Shown here piece by piece: positions 1 to 10,879 of a stretch of 10,879 nucleotides of DNA. This DNA comes from Bacteroidota bacterium (GTDB lineage Bacteria > Bacteroidota > Ignavibacteria > Ignavibacteriales > Ignavibacteriaceae). Under the pieces are notes generated by a model. That model saw only the letters and a list, made by a program, of their open reading frames with translations. It did no database searches and had not been told where the DNA came from. Every line of letters begins with the position of its first letter. Within the stretch, counting starts at the first letter, position 1. The stretch is taken from contig JAJYOQ010000108.1 in NCBI GenBank assembly GCA_021796135.1, forward strand, positions 1 through 10,879, read 5' to 3'. The translations under genes and the position numbers were made by a program.

Positions 1-3000
1 CGGTATATCCGGATCGACGCCATGACCTTCGGGGAACCATTGACCGTCGGGAAGAAACATTCTAAATGTAGGGACAGTAATATAGCCGCCGTCAATAAGG
101 GAGGGTGATCCGGAGATACCGATTAAACCGCCCCAGGTTCTCATACCGATAAGGGGACCGAGTCCGGCTTCATGGAAAAATTCAGGGAAAGCATCCCCGC
201 CGGAGCCGCTCCAGCCGTTAATCAGCATCACCTTAGGACCGAAGACAGAGAACTGAGGCCATTGCCAGTCCTTACCGTCTCTAACGGCAAAAAAAGCAAG
301 CGGTTTTCTGTCGAGCATTTCGATAAACCTATCGGGAATTTGCCCGCCGCTATTAAAGCGTTCGTCAATAATTAAACCCTGTTTATCAATCTGAGCAGTG
401 AACTGTCTGATGAGATCATTCTGACCCTCGATACCCGTATCCTGGACATAGATATATCCGATTTTTCCGTCAGTTTGTTTTTCCACAGTTTCTCTATTAT
501 GTTCAATCCAGTTAAGCAGGCGCAAGCGGCTTTCATCCGTCATAGTTTCGACCATAATTTTTCTAGCGCCGTCCATAGAAGGTTTATCATTCACGGTAAG
601 TTCGACAGATTTACCCGCGAGTCCCTGAAAAGCAGCCCAGGGATCTTTTTTAATATCAATAGGGATACCGTTAACAGCGAGGATGTAGTCGCCATCATGC
701 ACATTAAGTCCCGGCTGATCCAAAGGAGAGCGAGTATCGCTATCCCACGAAGCGCCTTTAATAATTTTTTTAATTCTATAAGCGCCGTTAGCCAGTTCCC
801 AATCAATACCGAGGTAACCGACAGGCATAATGACAGGTTTTTGTAGATCGCCGCCTCCGCGATAAGTATGGGAAGAGCTAATTTCGCCGATCAATTCGCC
901 GATGATATAATTAACATCAGATCTGGTCATAGCATTATCTATAAGATTACCGTACTGAGTGCGCAATGCATCCCAATTAACACCGTGCATATGCGGGTCA
1001 TAGAAGAAATCTCTTTCAATGCGCCAGGCATCATTAAATATTTGGTGCCATTCTTCGCGGGGATTGACAGTAATTTCCATTTGATCCGTAGGCATTTTCT
1101 TATCAAGTTTAACATCCGGAGCGACATCTGTAATAAAATAAGAGCCATTTTGAGCGATCATAATTTTTTTACAATCAGCCGAAAGCATATAATTATCAAT
1201 ACCGGCGGCGATATTTTTTTCTTCACGTTTATCGAGATCGTAATAGGCAGCCGTATTTTTTTTATCAAGGGATCCGGTCCGGGGCGCTCTGATAAATAAA
1301 ACTTTTCCGGAGACAGCTTCAAGATTCGAATAGTTACCCGCAGCAGGAGGGAGAATAACAGTTCTTAAATCCATACCGTCGAAATCAATTTTCACATCAT
1401 TAGATTTTTCTTCTTTTTTCTTACCGTCATTTTTCTTAGAGTCATTATCCTTCGGCTTATCGCCGTCTTTTTTCTCATCACTCTTAATAGAAGTAGAGTC
1501 ATTTCTAACCGAGAGAGGAGAAGGGACATCAGTGCGGAGAGTAATAGCGGCGATACGGGTAGAATTCGGATATATAAAAGTATTATCCATATCGCTATAT
1601 AGAGGAGAGAAAGTATTATTCGTTAAGAAGTAAAGATATTTACCATCGGGATCGAAGACAGGAGAGCTGTCGTTATAATAGCCCGAAGTAATATCATGCA
1701 CCTTATTATTGACCGCATCATAAATGCAGATTTTGCTATGCAAGTTATCGACATCTTTAGCATAGGTCATCCACCGGCTATCGGCAGACCAGGAAACTTT
1801 AAAGCCCTCGAGATTGCCCTCATAATAGAATTTCTCTTTATCCACTTTAGTAGTTTTATTATTATCGACATCATAGATGAAAATATTCATAGCTTTATCG
1901 ATAAAGGCAATTTTTTTACTATCCGGCGACCAATAGAGATTATATCTAAAACCGGGACCATAGGAAGTAAGTTTTTTTTCGCTTAGAGGGTTTTCCATAT
2001 TTTTTAGATAAAGTTCATACTCACCGGAGCGGTCGCTCCAATAGGCAATATTCTTGCCGTCAGGAGACCAAGCGGGGAATCTTTCTGCAAAGCCGGAAGT
2101 ATTAGTAAGGTCAGCCACATAGCCATGTTCAGCCGGAACCGAAAAAATATCACCCCGTGCTTCAAACAGAGCCCTATTGCCATCGGGAGAGACGAAGAAA
2201 TTTTTAATCATACCGGCAGCATTTTCGGTTTTAGACATAATCGTAATATCATCAGTGACCACCTCAATTTTGACCTCCTTATATTTTTCCGTAGAGAGAT
2301 CGAGGAGATAAAGTTTTCCGCCGGCTTCGAATACAATATCATCCGGACCCAGTGAAGGGAAGTGGATATCGAAATCGGTAAAGTTAGTAATTTGTCTAGT
2401 CTGTTTAGTTTTAAGGTCATAAGCCCAGATATTAGCGCGTTCATCGGTGCCTCTATCAGAAAGGAAATAAATAGTATTATTATGCCACATAGGGAATTCA
2501 TCATTAGCCGGATTATTAGTAATATTTTCAGCAGTACCCGTTTCGAAATTATAGATCCAAATATCCGCAGCCCAGCCGCCGCGATATCTTTTCCAGGTAC
2601 GATAAGCCTGAGACATAGGCGTATAGGCAATCGATTTAGAATCCGGAGAAATAGAAGCAAACTCACCGTAGGGTATAATAAGTTTTTCAGGCATACCGCC
2701 GGAGGCACTGACCTTATAGAACTGGTCATAGCGTTGTCTGCCGCTTTCCATAGAAGAAGCATAGAGCAAGCTTTTCCCATCCGGATACCATCCGACCGTT
2801 AAATCCGGGTAGCCATGGTGAGTAATTCTCAGAGGCATACCGCCTTTAGAAGGCATAACATAGACATCCATATTACCTTTATAATCGCCGCTGAAGGCAA
2901 TTTGGGAGCCATCCGGAGAGAAGTGGGGAAGAATTTCATCACCCGGAGGAGTAGTAAGTCTATTAGCAACGCCGCCGTCTTTAGGGGCAATCCACAAATC

Positions 3001-3135
3001 GCCCGCATATTCAAAGACGATTTGAGATTTAGACACAGCGGGGTACTGCAACAAGCGGGCGTCGATCTGTGCATTAATATTTTTTACGAAGAAAGCTGAC
3101 ATTAGCAATGCCGTGAGGAAAACGAATCTTTTCAT
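1..3135 (-). CDS. Tricorn-family serine protease with signal peptide (C-terminal end beyond window)
   Basis: Large exported protease, probably trimming peptides outside the cytoplasm. The frame is open from ATG at 3135 to base 1 (1045 codons, no stop), so only the extreme C-terminus is missing. AAGGAG (3140-3145) precedes the ATG by four bases. Residues 1-22 form a Sec signal peptide (MKR, hydrophobic stretch, cleavage after INA before Gln23); no lipobox Cys is present. Residues ~25-690 hold repeated propeller blades with FSPDG, WSPDG and WSPDS motifs, as in the two tricorn beta-propellers. A Lys/Asp/Glu-rich linker lies at ~545-580, a position where bacterial tricorns often carry one. A PDZ domain spans ~770-865 (GYLGIDW, DGDYILAVNG). 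The catalytic region shows Ser755-His756 (SSHTY), Ser978 (WSGSGGD) and Glu1036 (FPEGHGVDPD). These match Ser745, His746, Ser965 and Glu1023 of archaeal tricorn, which is 1071 aa, with near-identical spacing, so the enzyme looks active. The family call is secure; substrate is unknown. Confidence 0.95.
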   Translation of the reverse strand, partial: MKRFVFLTALLMSAFFVKNINAQIDARLLQYPAVSKSQIVFEYAGDLWIAPKDGGVANRLTTPPGDEILPHFSPDGSQIAFSGDYKGNMDVYVMPSKGGMPLRITHHGYPDLTVGWYPDGKSLLYASSMESGRQRYDQFYKVSASGGMPEKLIIPYGEFASISPDSKSIAYTPMSQAYRTWKRYRGGWAADIWIYNFETGTAENITNNPANDEFPMWHNNTIYFLSDRGTDERANIWAYDLKTKQTRQITNFTDFDIHFPSLGPDDIVFEAGGKLYLLDLSTEKYKEVKIEVVTDDITIMSKTENAAGMIKNFFVSPDGNRALFEARGDIFSVPAEHGYVADLTNTSGFAERFPAWSPDGKNIAYWSDRSGEYELYLKNMENPLSEKKLTSYGPGFRYNLYWSPDSKKIAFIDKAMNIFIYDVDNNKTTKVDKEKFYYEGNLEGFKVSWSADSRWMTYAKDVDNLHSKICIYDAVNNKVHDITSGYYNDSSPVFDPDGKYLYFLTNNTFSPLYSDMDNTFIYPNSTRIAAITLRTDVPSPLSVRNDSTSIKSDEKKDGDKPKDNDSKKNDGKKKEEKSNDVKIDFDGMDLRTVILPPAAGNYSNLEAVSGKVLFIRAPRTGSLDKKNTAAYYDLDKREEKNIAAGIDNYMLSADCKKIMIAQNGSYFITDVAPDVKLDKKMPTDQMEITVNPREEWHQIFNDAWRIERDFFYDPHMHGVNWDALRTQYGNLIDNAMTRSDVNYIIGELIGEISSSHTYRGGGDLQKPVIMPVGYLGIDWELANGAYRIKKIIKGASWDSDTRSPLDQPGLNVHDGDYILAVNGIPIDIKKDPWAAFQGLAGKSVELTVNDKPSMDGARKIMVETMTDESRLRLLNWIEHNRETVEKQTDGKIGYIYVQDTGIEGQNDLIRQFTAQIDKQGLIIDERFNSGGQIPDRFIEMLDRKPLAFFAVRDGKDWQWPQFSVFGPKVMLINGWSGSGGDAFPEFFHEAGLGPLIGMRTWGGLIGISGSPSLIDGGYITVPTFRMFLPDGQWFPEGHGVDPDIP

Positions 3136-3806: not shown

Positions 3807-4079
3807 TTAATAAACATCATCATGACTACCCAAATCAACTGGTATTATTTTATCTTTATCAATTAAAAAATAAATTGAAATACGATAAGATAAATTTATC
3901 GAAACAGAATATAGCTTGGATAATTTTCCCTGAAGTTTATGCAATCTTAAGGAAGGGTGATTGGGATTTAATTCTAATAATTTTAATGTCTTTCCGTACT
4001 GAGGGATTACTTCAGGATGTTTTTTGATGAATTTCTTTGCTCGTTTTAAGTAGCTGACAGTATAAATTATTTCAGCCAC
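3807..4079 (-). CDS. RelE/ParE-superfamily toxin (mRNA interferase type)
   Basis: A 90-aa toxin of a type II toxin-antitoxin pair. RelE/YafQ-like members cleave mRNA on the ribosome and are held inactive by the partner antitoxin. Visible family marks are the basic N-terminal helix (YLKRAKKFIKKHPE, residues 10-23), the HPSLRLHKLQGKL segment (41-53), the strand SINLSYRISIYF (60-71) and the C-terminal VDLGSHDDVY (81-90), where the conserved His86 sits. Length is typical of the family. The start is GTG at 4079, overlapping the last eight bases of the antitoxin gene (CGTGGCTGA is read in both frames), so translation is coupled; no later Met exists. RelE superfamily is near certain; the subfamily and whether it cleaves RNA or poisons gyrase (ParE-like) cannot be settled from sequence alone, though the HPSLRLHKL pattern favours the RelE/YafQ side. 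Confidence 0.88.
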   Translation of the reverse strand: MAEIIYTVSYLKRAKKFIKKHPEVIPQYGKTLKLLELNPNHPSLRLHKLQGKLSKLYSVSINLSYRISIYFLIDKDKIIPVDLGSHDDVY

Positions 4080-4329
4080 GAGTTATTCTCGTTATATGTT
4101 TTTCCACAGATTCTTTTATAAACTTTCCTTCTTTTATATCATTTTTAGCTTCAAGTAAGGCTGCTTCTAATTCACATTCCCTTAAATAATTGTATTTTTC
4201 AATTGGAATGACAACATATTTATTTTTCCCTCTTACTGTCACAATTACTTCATTGTTGTCGGAAGTTTCTTGATCCAAGATAGTGACGCCCTTAGTTTTT
4301 AAATCATTTGCCGTTATTATTTGTGCCAT
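4072..4329 (-). CDS. Phd/YefM-family antitoxin
   Basis: An 85-aa antitoxin that should neutralise the RelE-type toxin encoded immediately downstream and repress their shared promoter. The N-terminus, MAQIITANDLKTKG, and the central strand pair EVIVTVRGKNKYVVIPIEKYNYL (residues 27-49) are typical of the Phd/YefM DNA-binding fold. The C-terminal part (ECELEAALLEAKNDIKEGK) is helical and charged, as expected for the toxin-wrapping tail. I chose ATG at 4329 because AAGGA lies eight bases upstream and the family's N-terminal motif begins there; an upstream ATG at 4386 would overlap the promoter. The gene overlaps the toxin gene by eight bases, the usual antitoxin-first layout. Confidence 0.9.
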   Translation of the reverse strand: MAQIITANDLKTKGVTILDQETSDNNEVIVTVRGKNKYVVIPIEKYNYLRECELEAALLEAKNDIKEGKFIKESVEKHITRITRG

Positions 4330-4345
4330 ATTAATAATCCTTATA

Positions 4346-4386
4346 TTAGTACTGTCTATAATACTAAAAAGAAGACTATTTATCAA
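4346..4386 (-). promoter_or_regulatory. Promoter and operator candidate of the toxin-antitoxin operon
   Basis: On the minus strand TTGATA (4386-4381) and TATTAT (4363-4358) are separated by 17 bases, a strong sigma70-like promoter directed at the antitoxin gene, with the start expected about 20 bases before its ribosome site. A perfect inverted repeat, TTAGTA (4346-4351) and TACTAA (4362-4367) with a ten-base spacer, covers the -10 box. That position suits autorepression by an antitoxin or toxin-antitoxin complex, which is established for Phd/YefM systems; binding at this site is inferred. Confidence 0.55.
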
Positions 4387-4867: not shown

Positions 4868-5479
4868 ATGACAACACAAGACAAACCTTATGAGGTTCAA
4901 TTCGAAATTGCAGGACCAGCAGCAATGTTTACTAGACCGGATACTGGTGCAACTCCAGTTTCTTATCCAGCACCAACATATTCTGCGGCAAAGGGAATGT
5001 TTGAATCTATTGCACGACTTAAAAGTGCTTACATTAAGCCCGTAAGAGTTGAGATATGCGCTCCAATTCATTACCACAACTATACAAATAATTACCATGG
5101 CCCATTACGAAAAAGTGGGACAGATAATTTCCAATTATTTGCAACTATTCTTACAAATGTTTGTTATCGTATTTATGGAGTTGTAGAGGAATTGGAACGA
5201 GCGCCCATTGATAAAACGACAAACCATTTACATTATCTTCAAGATAAATTTGAAAAGCGACTTCGTAATGGCAGGTGGTATCACGTACCATGTTTGGGCT
5301 GGAAAGAGTTTACACCTTCTTATGTAGGATTATTCCGTGAAGAGACTAAAGTTGAAGAATCAATCGAACAAATAATTCCTTCAATGCTATTTTCTGTTTT
5401 CAGCGCGCCGGGTAAATATGCACCATCATATAAACAAGATGTTTGGATAAAGAAAGGAGTGCTTGAATATGTTGAATGA
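4868..5479 (+). CDS. cas5: CRISPR-associated Cas5, type I-C-like (Cas5d/Cas5c)
   Basis: A 203-aa RAMP protein that should cap the 5' handle of the crRNA in Cascade and, in type I-C, also cut pre-crRNA because cas6 is absent. Family marks are the N-terminal strand and loop (VQFEIAGPAAMFTRP, residues 10-24), VSYPAPTYSAAKGMFESI (31-48), equivalent to the SY-x-PT-SAARG-ILEAI block of known I-C Cas5, and the G-rich-loop region RLRNGRWYHVPCLGWKEF (131-148), equivalent to the RxGQ...PYLGCREF block. In the I-C proteins I remember a Lys-His pair precedes that block; here the matching stretch reads NHLHYLQDKF, so His120 or His122 is present but the Lys is not obvious. AGAGG at 4858-4862 sits five bases before the ATG. 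The 3' end overlaps cas8 by 11 bases. Confidence 0.88.
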   Translation: MTTQDKPYEVQFEIAGPAAMFTRPDTGATPVSYPAPTYSAAKGMFESIARLKSAYIKPVRVEICAPIHYHNYTNNYHGPLRKSGTDNFQLFATILTNVCYRIYGVVEELERAPIDKTTNHLHYLQDKFEKRLRNGRWYHVPCLGWKEFTPSYVGLFREETKVEESIEQIIPSMLFSVFSAPGKYAPSYKQDVWIKKGVLEYVE

Positions 5480-7634
5480 AGGTTATGCTCTTTATAAAAG
5501 CCTTGAACGATGTGGGATGATTGGAAAGTCAACCTTTACACGAGGACACCGCGATGTAACAAATCCAGGTAAAAGCGATGGTTTAATAATCGGGCTCAAT
5601 GAAAGAGGGCAAGTGACGAGAATTGAATTTAGAAATAAACAAGAAATGATAAAGTTGTGGACAATAACAAAAGGAAACCACAATAGTTTCCCAGCGATCA
5701 AATTGCAGCGTCCCATATGGAATGTAAAATCAAACGATACACTTCGGACAAATCTTAAAGAGTTGAAAAAGAATGAACATGAGAAGAAGATTTTACTCTT
5801 TAGTCAAAATACGGAATTTAATATCACAGAAACGGAAATAAACTGGTGGAAACGACTGCAAGAACGTACCAAAGAATTACAACCACTTTTTAAAACAACA
5901 GATAGGGATTTTAATGTACTCAACGAATTGATGACTCGTTTTCAACTCGCAGACAACTTTGATAAGTTTCTTGTTGGGTTTCTAAAAGCTTTAAAAGATT
6001 CCAAAAATGACATTCCTTATTTACTCATCGAAAATATTCTTATTGGTAATAAAGCGGATAAAAACAAGAATGAATATCGAGCCGAAGTACGTTTAATATT
6101 TGATGTTGATGATTGGGATGATGCCGATAAATATTTAAATCGTGTGGCGAGCCCTCGTTTAGAACCATTTGTTATCAACTGCTTGTTTAATATGCAAGAT
6201 TCTTCGAGCGGAATATCAACACATCGTGTAAGTGGATTATCTGGAAAACTGAAATTATTAATTGATGATAAATATCCACAATTAACATTACCGATTGGGA
6301 AAGCGTATCTGTTCTCAGCCACAGAAAATATACGTTGCTTGGAACGATATGGGAAAATAAGCACAGAAATATTTCCTGTTGGCAAAGATGAAGCTGATGA
6401 CATTTTACGCGCACTTAAAGGAATAATTAATGAAGACCGTAAAGGTAAAACATGGTATCTTTTAAATAAAGATGAGTTATTAATAGTGTACCTCGAAAGC
6501 AAACCAGATACTAATGTAAACAATGCACATCTATTGGGTGGTGTAACTAAGGATGATTTCAGCGAAAGCTCTTATGAAGCAATATCAAGTGTTGCTATTG
6601 AAGCATTAAAAGGAAACAAGCTTATTAAAGCAAATGACCTGATTAGGCTTTTTGCACTTCGGAAAGCGGACCCTGGAAGAACTCAAGTATCTCTACAACG
6701 AATTTATACAATATCCGATCTTGTGAAAGCAGACGAAGTTTGGAGGGCAGCCGCACAAAACGCTCCCAATATTACTCTTCCTTTTTTCCGTAAAGAGATA
6801 GAAAAAATAACCGCAAAACAAAATAATATTTCGACAATAATTAAAACATTTCTTGATGTTGAAGAATCAAAATTGATAAACATAGCACCCAACTGTCCAT
6901 TCCCTGTTGATCTTGTCCGCCTGACGCAAAAACAATGGATACGAGCTGGAAAAGATTTTTCTTCGGTAGCTGGTTGTTCACTCGGAGATATATATGATGT
7001 GTTTTTTGCCAATGAAAATGAAAAGAAATATATAGTTGAAAATCTTCTGAGCAAAACACTACAACGCACAAAAGCGCTGTTAATTGGTATAGCGAATGCA
7101 GATCACAAAAAAGAATTAATAAGAGAACAGAAAAAATTTCATTCGGAAAAACGCTTTATTGTGCTGAGAACTATTTCAGCATTCGCTATTTATTTAAATA
7201 AATTAGGAATCACCAAGGAGAATTATATGAAAGACACATTTTTTTATGTCGGTAGATTTTTATCCCTGATCGACACATTACATTTTGAATATTGTAAAAA
7301 TGTTCGTGGTGGAAGTATTCCACCTCAACTTTTGGGAAATTCACACCTTCAAATTGCCTTAGATAATCCAGTTTCAGCAATTGATATGCTCTCAAGAAGG
7401 ATTAGTGTATATCATGCCTGGGCAAAAAAAGAGCAGGGGGAAAACATTAGGTCAGCTAAATGGGCAGTTAGAGAACTTGGGAAAATATCTAATTTACTCG
7501 CCGAAAAAAATCTGCCTTTATCAACAACCGATGTTGAAAGGACACAAATACTTTTAGGATATTTATCAAGATCGGAAAGCAATACAGAATTCAATTCTGT
7601 TAATAACATGGAAGAACATAACGACAAGAATTAA
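5469..7634 (+). CDS. cas8c: Cas8c-like (Csd1) large subunit of a type I-C-like Cascade
   Basis: Predicted large subunit, expected to recognise the PAM and help open target DNA. It is 721 aa, longer than the ~600 aa I expect for Csd1, and divergent. The identification rests on its place between cas5 and cas7, plus features matching Csd1: the N-terminal GLNERGQVTRIE segment (~42-54), the central block FSATENIRCLERYGK with WYLLNKDELLIVY (~283-342), and the helical C-terminus with FYVGRFLSLIDTLHFEY, QIALDNPVSAIDMLSRRI and the terminal ILLGYLSR. I chose ATG at 5469, nine bases after AAAGGAG (5453-5459), over a TTG at 5463 that lies only three bases away. It overlaps the cas5 end by 11 bases. The last 135 codons carry an internal ribosome site and start, listed separately. 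A divergent Cas8b is the main alternative; gene order favours Cas8c. Confidence 0.82.
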   Translation: MLNEGYALYKSLERCGMIGKSTFTRGHRDVTNPGKSDGLIIGLNERGQVTRIEFRNKQEMIKLWTITKGNHNSFPAIKLQRPIWNVKSNDTLRTNLKELKKNEHEKKILLFSQNTEFNITETEINWWKRLQERTKELQPLFKTTDRDFNVLNELMTRFQLADNFDKFLVGFLKALKDSKNDIPYLLIENILIGNKADKNKNEYRAEVRLIFDVDDWDDADKYLNRVASPRLEPFVINCLFNMQDSSSGISTHRVSGLSGKLKLLIDDKYPQLTLPIGKAYLFSATENIRCLERYGKISTEIFPVGKDEADDILRALKGIINEDRKGKTWYLLNKDELLIVYLESKPDTNVNNAHLLGGVTKDDFSESSYEAISSVAIEALKGNKLIKANDLIRLFALRKADPGRTQVSLQRIYTISDLVKADEVWRAAAQNAPNITLPFFRKEIEKITAKQNNISTIIKTFLDVEESKLINIAPNCPFPVDLVRLTQKQWIRAGKDFSSVAGCSLGDIYDVFFANENEKKYIVENLLSKTLQRTKALLIGIANADHKKELIREQKKFHSEKRFIVLRTISAFAIYLNKLGITKENYMKDTFFYVGRFLSLIDTLHFEYCKNVRGGSIPPQLLGNSHLQIALDNPVSAIDMLSRRISVYHAWAKKEQGENIRSAKWAVRELGKISNLLAEKNLPLSTTDVERTQILLGYLSRSESNTEFNSVNNMEEHNDKN
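7215..7220 (+). promoter_or_regulatory. Internal Shine-Dalgarno site within cas8
   Basis: AAGGAG, a perfect ribosome-binding core, stands six bases before an in-frame ATG at 7227 inside the coding sequence of cas8. Site strength and spacing equal or exceed those of the annotated cas gene starts in this operon, and the flanking bases are AT-rich and probably unstructured. Confidence 0.7.
7227..7634 (+). CDS. cas11c: Predicted internally translated small subunit Cas11c (in frame within cas8)
   Basis: A 135-aa protein read from Met at 7227 to the cas8 stop. In studied type I-C systems the helical small subunit Cas11c is made from an internal start near the 3' end of cas8c and lines the belly of Cascade in more than one copy. 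Here the same architecture is visible: AAGGAG, six bases, ATG, then MKDTFFYVGRFLSLIDTLHF and a mostly helical, basic sequence with no interruption (RRISVYHAWAKK, AKWAVRELGKISNLLAEK). The start falls at the expected boundary before the C-terminal helical domain of Cas8. The acidic, Asn-rich tail (last ~20 residues) is probably disordered. Separate translation is inferred from the start site, not shown; the reading frame itself is certain. Confidence 0.68.
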   Translation: MKDTFFYVGRFLSLIDTLHFEYCKNVRGGSIPPQLLGNSHLQIALDNPVSAIDMLSRRISVYHAWAKKEQGENIRSAKWAVRELGKISNLLAEKNLPLSTTDVERTQILLGYLSRSESNTEFNSVNNMEEHNDKN

Positions 7635-7667
7635 AATATTTTATTAACAAATCTACTGGAGGCTATT

Positions 7668-8531
7668 ATGTCAGACACTACAAAAAAAGAAATCTTTAAT
7701 CGTGCGACCGGATTATTGGTTATCGAAGTAATTAATTCTAATCCTAATGGAGACCCCGACAAGGAAAGTGATCCGCGGCAGAGAAATGACCAAAGAGGTG
7801 AAATAACCCCGGTATCATTCAAAAGAAAGGTTCGTGATCTTACTGAAAATAAAGAAGGGCCGGTCTGGAAATCAATTTCAAAAAAATTAGCACTCGATGA
7901 AAAAAAATTCATGATATCAGAAAGTCGCAAAACAGAACTTAGTGAGATGCGTAATCTTGATGAAAAGCAGTTTACAGAACAATTTTGGGATGGTCGTATT
8001 TTTGGTAATACAGAATTAGAAAAAGGAAGAAAGATTCCTGTTAAAACCGGAGTAGTGCAGTTTGGTCTTGGTGTTTCTATTGCACCAATTGAAATCGAAC
8101 GTATGACGACAACTAATCCACCTGTTGAGAATGATAAAAAAGGTGGTATGGCTCCATTGTCATTCCGCATCGTTTCTCATGGAATTTATTGTATGCCTTT
8201 TTTTATTAATCCTACAGCATCATTTAAAACAGGATGTACAATGGAAGACATTAACCTTCTTTTAAACATTATACCTCATGCTTATAAGCATACAGCTTCA
8301 TACATTAGAAGTAATGTAGAGATTATACACGCTTGGTATATCGAACACAAAACTCCAATTGGTTCATGTTCAGATTTTGATCTAATAAATGCATTAACAC
8401 CCAAAAAACTTAATGATCTCGAAAAACCTTCTAATTCAAGAGCCGATTATATTATACCAACTGAAAAAGATGTGCCGGAAGAACTGTCCAATAAAGTGCT
8501 TCCAATTAGAGACTTAATGAAAGAAATATAA
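7668..8531 (+). CDS. cas7: CRISPR-associated Cas7 backbone protein, type I-C-like (Csd2/Csh2 family)
   Basis: A 287-aa RAMP protein, several copies of which coat the crRNA spacer in Cascade. Clear family marks are LLVIEVINSNPNGDPD (residues 16-31) with the conserved NPNGDPD, ITPVSFKRKVRDL (46-58), the block FWDGRIFGN (106-114), the KTGVVQFGLGVSIAPIE strand (126-142) followed by ERMTTTN, and the later HGIYCMPFFINPTASFKTGCTMEDINLLL (171-199), matching the GlY...gFinp..A..TGfs.eDl pattern of Csd2. TGGAGG with a five-base spacer gives a strong start at 7668, 33 bases after the cas8 stop. The stop codon abuts the cas3 start. Length is normal for the family and no conserved segment appears missing. 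Confidence 0.93.
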   Translation: MSDTTKKEIFNRATGLLVIEVINSNPNGDPDKESDPRQRNDQRGEITPVSFKRKVRDLTENKEGPVWKSISKKLALDEKKFMISESRKTELSEMRNLDEKQFTEQFWDGRIFGNTELEKGRKIPVKTGVVQFGLGVSIAPIEIERMTTTNPPVENDKKGGMAPLSFRIVSHGIYCMPFFINPTASFKTGCTMEDINLLLNIIPHAYKHTASYIRSNVEIIHAWYIEHKTPIGSCSDFDLINALTPKKLNDLEKPSNSRADYIIPTEKDVPEELSNKVLPIRDLMKEI

Positions 8532-10727
8532 ATGCCAACTTGGCTTGCACATAGTGCGGGCAAGAATCCGCCAATACCGCCTCAAACATATAATAAACAT
8601 GTTTCGGAAGTGTCGAAACGTGCTTTAGAAAATGTTAATCCTATTTCATCTTACTATAAAGGCGATATAGATTATTTCCGTGAAGCAGTACATTCAGCAG
8701 CTATTTACCATGACTTGGGAAAACTTGATGATGAAAATCAAAAGATCCTTTCTAAAGGCGGTGGAAAAGGTTTGCCCTTTAATCATGTTGATGCAGGCAC
8801 AGCAAATTTACTAAAAAATAATTTGGTGGAATCTGCATTACTGGTATACTCACATCATATAGGCTTACAATCTATTCCTGAGGAGCAAGCAAAGGCAGAA
8901 ATGTTTCTTCGTGATTCAAATTCAGCTACAAGGACTGAACAATTTCTCTCAGATTATCTTTCAAAACACATTCAATCGGGTTCAGAGAAGTTGGGGAATA
9001 ATACCAAAAGTATTTCCGATTGGAATGGATTAACACGGAGAATAGCACTTTCATGTTTGGTGGATTCAGATCATGGAGATACAGCAAATAATTATGGAAA
9101 AGAATTCCCCATTCCCAATCCATTACCAAAATGGAAAGAACGACTTGAAGCACTCGATAAATATGTTTCTGGATTAACTAGCGTAAACAGGCAAGATGAA
9201 AGAAATCGTCTTCGTCAAAAAATATATCAATCTTGCCGTGAAGCGGATACAACCCCTTCTTTTTATGCTTGTGATAGTCCTGTCGGAACCGGCAAAACAA
9301 CTGCGGTAATGGCACATTTACTTCGTGTGGCAATTGATAAAAACCTCCGTCACATTATCGTTGTTTTGCCTTACACGAATATCATTAAACAATCTGTAGA
9401 AGTTTACAGAAAAGCTCTTGTATTACCCGATGAAAAAGAAGACGAAGTTGTTGCCGAACATCATCTCCAAGCAGACTTTGATGCATTGGAAACGCGGCAG
9501 TTGGCAACACTTTGGAAAGCACCGATTATTGTTACAACAGCCGTGCAGTTTTTTGAAACAATTGCAAGTAATTACCCATCAAAACTCAGAAAACTTCACG
9601 AACTTCCTGGTTCTGGGATTTTCATAGACGAAACACATGCTTCTATACCATCGCATTTATGGCCTCAAACATGGAAATGGCTAAAAGAGTTTTCTGATAA
9701 GTGGGGTTGTCATTTTGTATTTGCTTCAGGTTCTCTTTCAAGATTTTGGGAACTCAAGGATATGATTGATGTCCCGATAATAATTCCAGAATTAGTTCCA
9801 CAAAATCTTAGAGAAGAAGCCCTGCGTCAGGAAACAATACGCGTTACACCAGTTCGCTATCCCTCAGTACTTAATGAGAAAGGTTTAATTGATCTTGTGA
9901 TAAGTAAACAAGGACCACGTTTGGTTATCATGAACACGGTTCAATCAGCTGCAGTGATAGCCCAAACAATGCGTCAATCAGGTCATGATGTTTTGCACCT
10001 TTCAACGGCACTTGCTCCTATTCATAGAGACTTGATTCTGGAGAGAATAAAGCAGCGGCTAAAATATGAAGTACAAGATTGGACATTAATTGCTACTAGT
10101 TGTGTAGAAGCAGGTGTAGACTTTTCTTTTCGTTCTGCATTTCGGGAACGTGCAGGTGCAGCAAATCTAATTCAAGTTGGAGGGCGTGTACGCCGGAACA
10201 ATGAAAATTTTGAACCAACACTTATTGATTTTAGAATTGAAGCACCGCTTTTTAATCGACATCCTGCATTTACTTTATCTAGTCAAATATTAGAAAAACT
10301 TTTTGATGAACATCGAGTAGAAAATGACACACCTGCAAATCTTATAACAGAAGCGTTACGCAGAGAATTGATGTCTAATGACTGCGAGAAACAGAAAAGA
10401 TTACAAAGGATGGAAAACGAAATGGACTATCCGGAAGTAGCACGTCTCTACAAAGTTATCGCGGATGATACTCGTCTTGTGCTAATTGATCAAGAATTAA
10501 TAAGGAACCTTGAGAATCATCAAAAAGTTGATCCTAAAGATATTAATAGGAAAAGCGTTCAAATATGGGCAAGCAAGATTAACAAACTTAGCATAAAACC
10601 TTTGAGTGGATCTTCCGATTCCGGACTTTATGTGTGGCCTTATGAATACGATCCCGATTTTCTTGGTTATATGAAAGGTATACTCCCCTTACTTAAATTT
10701 GAATCTGAAGGTTTCCAAATCATATAG
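8532..10727 (+). CDS. cas3: CRISPR-associated nuclease-helicase Cas3 (HD plus SF2 helicase)
   Basis: A 731-aa effector recruited by target-bound Cascade to nick, unwind and degrade DNA in the 3'-5' direction. The N-terminal HD nuclease is intact: His23, His60-Asp61 (YHDLGK), His85 (FNHVDAGT), His108-His109 (YSHHIGL) and Asp178/Asp180 (LVDSDHGDTA). The helicase motifs follow in order: Walker A DSPVGTGKTTA (248-258), Ia LPYTNIIKQ (279-287), DExH box DETH (366-369), motif III FASGSLSRFW (397-406), IV VIMNTVQSA (465-473), V ATSCVEAGVDFSF (521-533) and VI IQVGGRVRRN (547-556). The ATG follows the cas7 stop directly (TAAATG) and has only a weak purine stretch before it, so its translation is probably coupled to cas7. 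It is the last cas gene here, whereas in usual I-C loci cas3 comes first. Confidence 0.96.
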   Translation: MPTWLAHSAGKNPPIPPQTYNKHVSEVSKRALENVNPISSYYKGDIDYFREAVHSAAIYHDLGKLDDENQKILSKGGGKGLPFNHVDAGTANLLKNNLVESALLVYSHHIGLQSIPEEQAKAEMFLRDSNSATRTEQFLSDYLSKHIQSGSEKLGNNTKSISDWNGLTRRIALSCLVDSDHGDTANNYGKEFPIPNPLPKWKERLEALDKYVSGLTSVNRQDERNRLRQKIYQSCREADTTPSFYACDSPVGTGKTTAVMAHLLRVAIDKNLRHIIVVLPYTNIIKQSVEVYRKALVLPDEKEDEVVAEHHLQADFDALETRQLATLWKAPIIVTTAVQFFETIASNYPSKLRKLHELPGSGIFIDETHASIPSHLWPQTWKWLKEFSDKWGCHFVFASGSLSRFWELKDMIDVPIIIPELVPQNLREEALRQETIRVTPVRYPSVLNEKGLIDLVISKQGPRLVIMNTVQSAAVIAQTMRQSGHDVLHLSTALAPIHRDLILERIKQRLKYEVQDWTLIATSCVEAGVDFSFRSAFRERAGAANLIQVGGRVRRNNENFEPTLIDFRIEAPLFNRHPAFTLSSQILEKLFDEHRVENDTPANLITEALRRELMSNDCEKQKRLQRMENEMDYPEVARLYKVIADDTRLVLIDQELIRNLENHQKVDPKDINRKSVQIWASKINKLSIKPLSGSSDSGLYVWPYEYDPDFLGYMKGILPLLKFESEGFQII

Positions 10728-10851: not shown

Positions 10852-10879
10852 ATGTCAAACATAAAACTTTTTAGATCGG
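10852..10879 (+). CDS. Start of a new ORF, cut by the right edge
   Basis: Only nine codons are visible (MSNIKLFRS), beginning at ATG 10852 with AAGGA (10842-10846) five bases upstream, a good ribosome site. An ATG at 10826 in another frame stops after twelve codons. The gene lies 124 bases after cas3 and beyond the hairpin, so it probably belongs to another unit. Its first residues do not resemble the usual starts of Cas4, Cas1 or Cas2 as I remember them. They are vaguely like BRO-type phage antirepressor proteins, but nine residues cannot support an assignment. Confidence 0.45.

Follow-up and report, generated by a model that had tools for sequence, protein, structure and literature searches.

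A probable internal start site in a divergent type I-C cas8 gene and its predicted Cas11c product

The stretch of DNA analysed here, referred to as the window, comprises 10,879 nucleotides of contig JAJYOQ010000108.1 (assembly GCA_021796135.1) from a Bacteroidota bacterium of the Ignavibacteriaceae. It carries a type I-C effector set (cas5c-cas8c-cas7c-cas3) that lies contiguously on the + strand at 4868-10727, with no gene interposed. No separate small-subunit gene or cas6 was found among the four effector genes, to which the search for cas6 was confined. The cas8 gene encodes a large subunit of a divergent family and contains, towards its 3' end, a ribosome-site-like word followed by an in-frame ATG, from which a second protein, the small subunit Cas11c, is predicted to be translated. 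The features are:

4868..5479, + strand: cas5c, overlapping the start of cas8 (Pfam, TIGR and PADLOC profile matches)
5469..7634, + strand: cas8c, divergent large subunit of 721 aa, ATG start (PADLOC PDLC01562, E 7.2e-145; type I-C Cas8c fold)
7215..7220, + strand: AAGGAG, internal Shine-Dalgarno-like site formed by Lys-Glu codons of cas8 (the same in 7/7 relatives with DNA)
7227..7634, + strand: internal reading frame with ATG start, predicted Cas11c small subunit of 135 aa (conservation and model)
7668..8531, + strand: cas7c (profile matches)
8532..10727, + strand: cas3, helicase and HD nuclease (profile matches)

The predicted internal start site and its conservation

The site consists of AAGGAG (7215-7220), the spacer AATTAT (7221-7226) and ATG (7227-7229), all in the cas8 frame, whose stop ends at 7634; the product of 135 residues has a mass of 15,396 Da. 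The ATG is codon 587 counted from the ATG at 5469, the start favoured by homologues, and codon 589 counted from an alternative TTG at 5463, two codons upstream. An earlier note, made from the letters of this DNA, had placed an AAGGAG, a six-base gap and the start of a 135-aa product at codon 589; its coordinates and product length were reproduced, its codon number being the count from the TTG. When ribosome words were defined as AGGAG, GGAGG or AAGGA positioned 4-10 nt before ATG, GTG or TTG, this was the sole in-frame pair of word and start in the gene, and one out-of-frame pair was found at codon 321.

Both the start and the residue pair underlying the ribosome word are strongly conserved. 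In a protein alignment of 88 rows (window and 87 homologues, one of them, P0049, from a Melioribacter, and the most distant being P0080-P0087), Met587 is present in every row, including homologues at 24-30% identity, and the other internal methionines of the window Cas8 are matched in at most 46/83. The two residues at the place of the ribosome word are Lys-Glu in 82 of the 88 rows, the remainder being five rows with RE, TE, KD or QE and a single row (P0086) with PN. At the DNA level, AAGGAG-N6-ATG occurs in all eight sequences compared, i.e. the window and seven relatives (G001, G002, G296, G405, G554, G573 and G637); the G405 contig stops after the eighth codon of the small frame and informs on the site only. 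A single codon is used by all eight at 9 of 62 columns with a shared residue (Met and Trp excluded). Of the Lys and Glu columns in this set of nine, K583 and E584 alone have the rarer codon throughout (AAG and GAG); the others have AAA or GAA. In the window cas8 these are minority codons, AAG encoding 12 of 67 Lys and GAG 6 of 50 Glu. Shuffling of codons within each gene produced AAGGAG in all eight sequences in 0/500 trials, and the corresponding product of codon frequencies is 2.7e-11 if independence is assumed. This codon-directed test was chosen after the motif had been seen, and is stronger than a motif-blind scan for synonymous conservation.

The motif-blind scan of the eight sequences gave a high score at the site that was not significant: the 5-codon z of 5.57 compares with a 95% maximum of 6.16 for the shuffles, 88 of 500 of which reached the value of the site. 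Windows scoring above the site were codons 1-4 (the cas5 overlap), 578 and 373. High synonymous conservation was also observed at cas8 codons about 574-580 (about 7188-7208), just upstream of the ribosome site, with Leu576 being TTA in 8/8; this stretch may aid initiation through low structure or as an enhancer.

Family and fold of the two subunits

Profile and fold both place the window Cas8 in the Cas8c family in the wider sense. In addition to the PDLC01562 match, Foldseek ranks 1-8 and VIA ranks 1-12 of the structure searches were all type I-C Cas8 or Cas11. By the curated cut-offs of PF09709 and TIGR01863 the protein falls outside canonical Cas8c/Csd1: it has no PF09709 match at E 1 and scored 14.9 bits (E 0.007) with TIGR01863 against a cut-off of 218.65, and PF09709 is annotated in none of the 87 homologues. 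Divergent and canonical proteins are alike in fold, and both are the large subunit of a cas5-cas8-cas7-cas3 effector. Comparison of the two families by hhalign (50 of the 88 divergent rows, 25 of 121 canonical proteins) gave a probability of 94 and an E of 1.2e-7 at 20% identity over 373 columns, and matched the KE-N-Tyr motifs of both families to each other. Sequence searches of the PDB found no relative: the single protein drew four matches, regarded as chance (best E 0.13), and a 17-row profile drew none. The connection to solved Cas11c is thus made through fold and through the canonical family as a bridge. No match was found in plasmid records, viral contigs gave four pattern-matching stretches and no relatives, and a further sample of 303 genomes from the class of G002 contained no new relative.

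The predicted model of the 135-aa product has seven helices and a mean pLDDT of 86.8 (residues 119-135 below 50), and shows the helical-bundle fold of Cas11c, in keeping with the mostly helical, Cas11-like product that the earlier note had expected. The internal start falls in a linker of Cas8, and a conserved in-frame start with a ribosome site at this domain boundary is the rule in both families, the exceptions being P0086 and 3 of 31 canonical loci. A weak Pfam match of the Cas11c part to DUF6189 (21 bits, cut-off 25) was not used. The Cas11c of Desulfovibrio vulgaris (Dvu; PDB 7kha, 8dej), described in passages of PMC7684278, is likewise small and helical, and likewise corresponds to the C-terminus of Cas8c with an internal ribosome site. 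The window product shares this fold in its predicted model, with a boundary in almost the same place, at 16-19% identity to the Dvu chains. The separate Cas11c chains of the solved Dvu complexes begin inside the Cas8c sequence at (V)SLDPARTDRPYLLGRL. The counterpart of Met587 of the window is approximately residue 7 of that chain, so that the 7kha start, a Val, precedes the ATG start of the window by about six residues in the fold.

The canonical family was sampled at 31 of 45 places from the phylum of G001, several of which are near-identical at the site (e.g. L017-L021 and L029/L030). AAGGAG was found in 25 of these loci, a shorter AGGAG or GGAG in three and no such word in three, followed by ATG in 14 loci or GTG in 17 at the boundary. 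The spacing from word to start is five to nine bases, compared with six in all eight divergent sequences. In canonical proteins the boundary pattern was found in 101/120 (Met in 99, Leu in 2), and six inspected of the 19 unmatched show Met. The distance between start and helix core is greater in the canonical than in the divergent family. That start and site shift in concert with respect to the helix points to a translation signal rather than a structural methionine.

Probable dual translation and its alternatives

These computations demonstrate the site and its conservation, locate it at the domain boundary and predict a fold like that of Cas11c. They make us confident that one gene gives rise to both full Cas8 and an internally initiated Cas11c, and they support the dual-product reading of the earlier note for a divergent Cas8. 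Several observations weigh against it. The earlier note had named homologues with the same C-terminus and no site or start as evidence to the contrary, and such cases were limited to P0086 (1 of 88 rows), which retains the Met and in which PN cannot encode AAGGAG, and three of the 31 canonical loci (L033, L043 and L044), which have an ATG at the Cas11c boundary and no ribosome-like word, and which may use another way of initiation. As to conservation beyond coding need, the codon-directed test is in favour, and the motif-blind scan is not decisive. Together with the near invariance of K583, E584 and Y586 in the protein alignments, that scan would suit an explanation in which Lys-Glu-x-Tyr-Met is kept solely as a Cas8 linker, the ribosome-like word is a by-product and full-length Cas8 alone is made. 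We regard this as improbable, as a protein-level need leaves the fixation on less-used AAG and GAG codons in 8/8 unexplained, canonical starts lie farther from the helix core and are ATG or GTG, yet follow a ribosome-like word by 5-9 nt in 28/31 loci, and solved I-C complexes contain separate Cas11c chains. Least credible of all is that a small subunit of this size arises by cleavage of Cas8 at the linker: the boundary does fall within one, and in type I-B it was at one time suggested that Cas8b is fragmented (according to passages of PMC11899642), yet a ribosome site, a start codon and particular codons are not needed for cleavage, and all three are conserved.

For internal initiation, the actual start of translation, the copy number and the role in Cascade in this organism are what we infer. 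The 3' end of cas8 would be translated twice from one mRNA, with initiation at the upstream start yielding the 721-aa large subunit and other ribosomes binding AAGGAG and starting at ATG 7227 to give a separate Cas11c equal to the Cas8 C-terminal domain. If the complex resembles the solved type I-C structures, additional free Cas11c subunits would lie next to Cas8 along the belly of Cascade, where they may stabilise the displaced strand as the R-loop forms; for type I-C, PMC7684278 and PMC11899642 give two such copies. Two Cas8c families of only ~20% identity retain AAGGAG at the same boundary, with a start whose place along the helix differs, and we lean slightly towards the ribosome site and start being more ancient and more stable than the surrounding protein, with the Lys-Glu pair largely its coding shadow and a separate Cas11c predating the split of the two families.

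Locus surroundings and wider context

In the relative L001, the effector genes are followed by cas4, cas1 and cas2, and a 32-nt repeat ending GTGGATTGAAAC is present twice; its type is typical of I-C, and no repeat of this type was found in the window. Another relative, L002, has a BRO-N domain gene (11490-12335) between cas3 and cas4. The last 28 bases of the window (10852-10879) open a frame that starts much like it (MSNIKLF, compared with MANIKLF), and the window may therefore carry the same insertion. Upstream of the effector genes, on the - strand, adjoining small genes at 3807-4386 resemble a toxin of the YafQ/HigB type and a Phd/YefM antitoxin, in each case under Pfam cut-offs, and positions 1-3135 encode a Tricorn-type protease (PD40 repeats, PDZ and S41 peptidase domain) truncated by the window edge.

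Small subunits have been seen in the type I-C complex, with an internal ribosome site cited for Dvu cas8c (in passages of PMC7684278), and passages of PMC11899642 report internal starts for types I-B, I-C and I-D. Cas11b and Cas11d, which arise from cas8b or cas10 in types I-B and I-D, share the plan of two proteins from one gene (PMC11899642); their large-subunit families differ from the window Cas8, and the likeness is one of plan rather than of compared sequences. PMC11899642 also cites Tan et al. 2022 for type I-C Cascade not forming without Cas11c. Passages of PMC6360697 and PMC7162821 treat other Cas8c or I-C variants, and searches of open-licence literature, judged by titles and abstract starts, found no paper on the present Cas8 clade. 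The label 'hidden gene' in the earlier note is fair as regards annotation, but the mechanism itself has been published.

Internal translation of Cas11 is already known in related systems, and conservation and modelling indicate that it very probably extends to this distant branch of Cas8, which is missed by the Csd1 models and whose members several database records call 'hypothetical protein'. The added value lies in a sharp codon-level signature of the dual-product plan, and a Cascade rebuilt from the annotated genes would omit a subunit.
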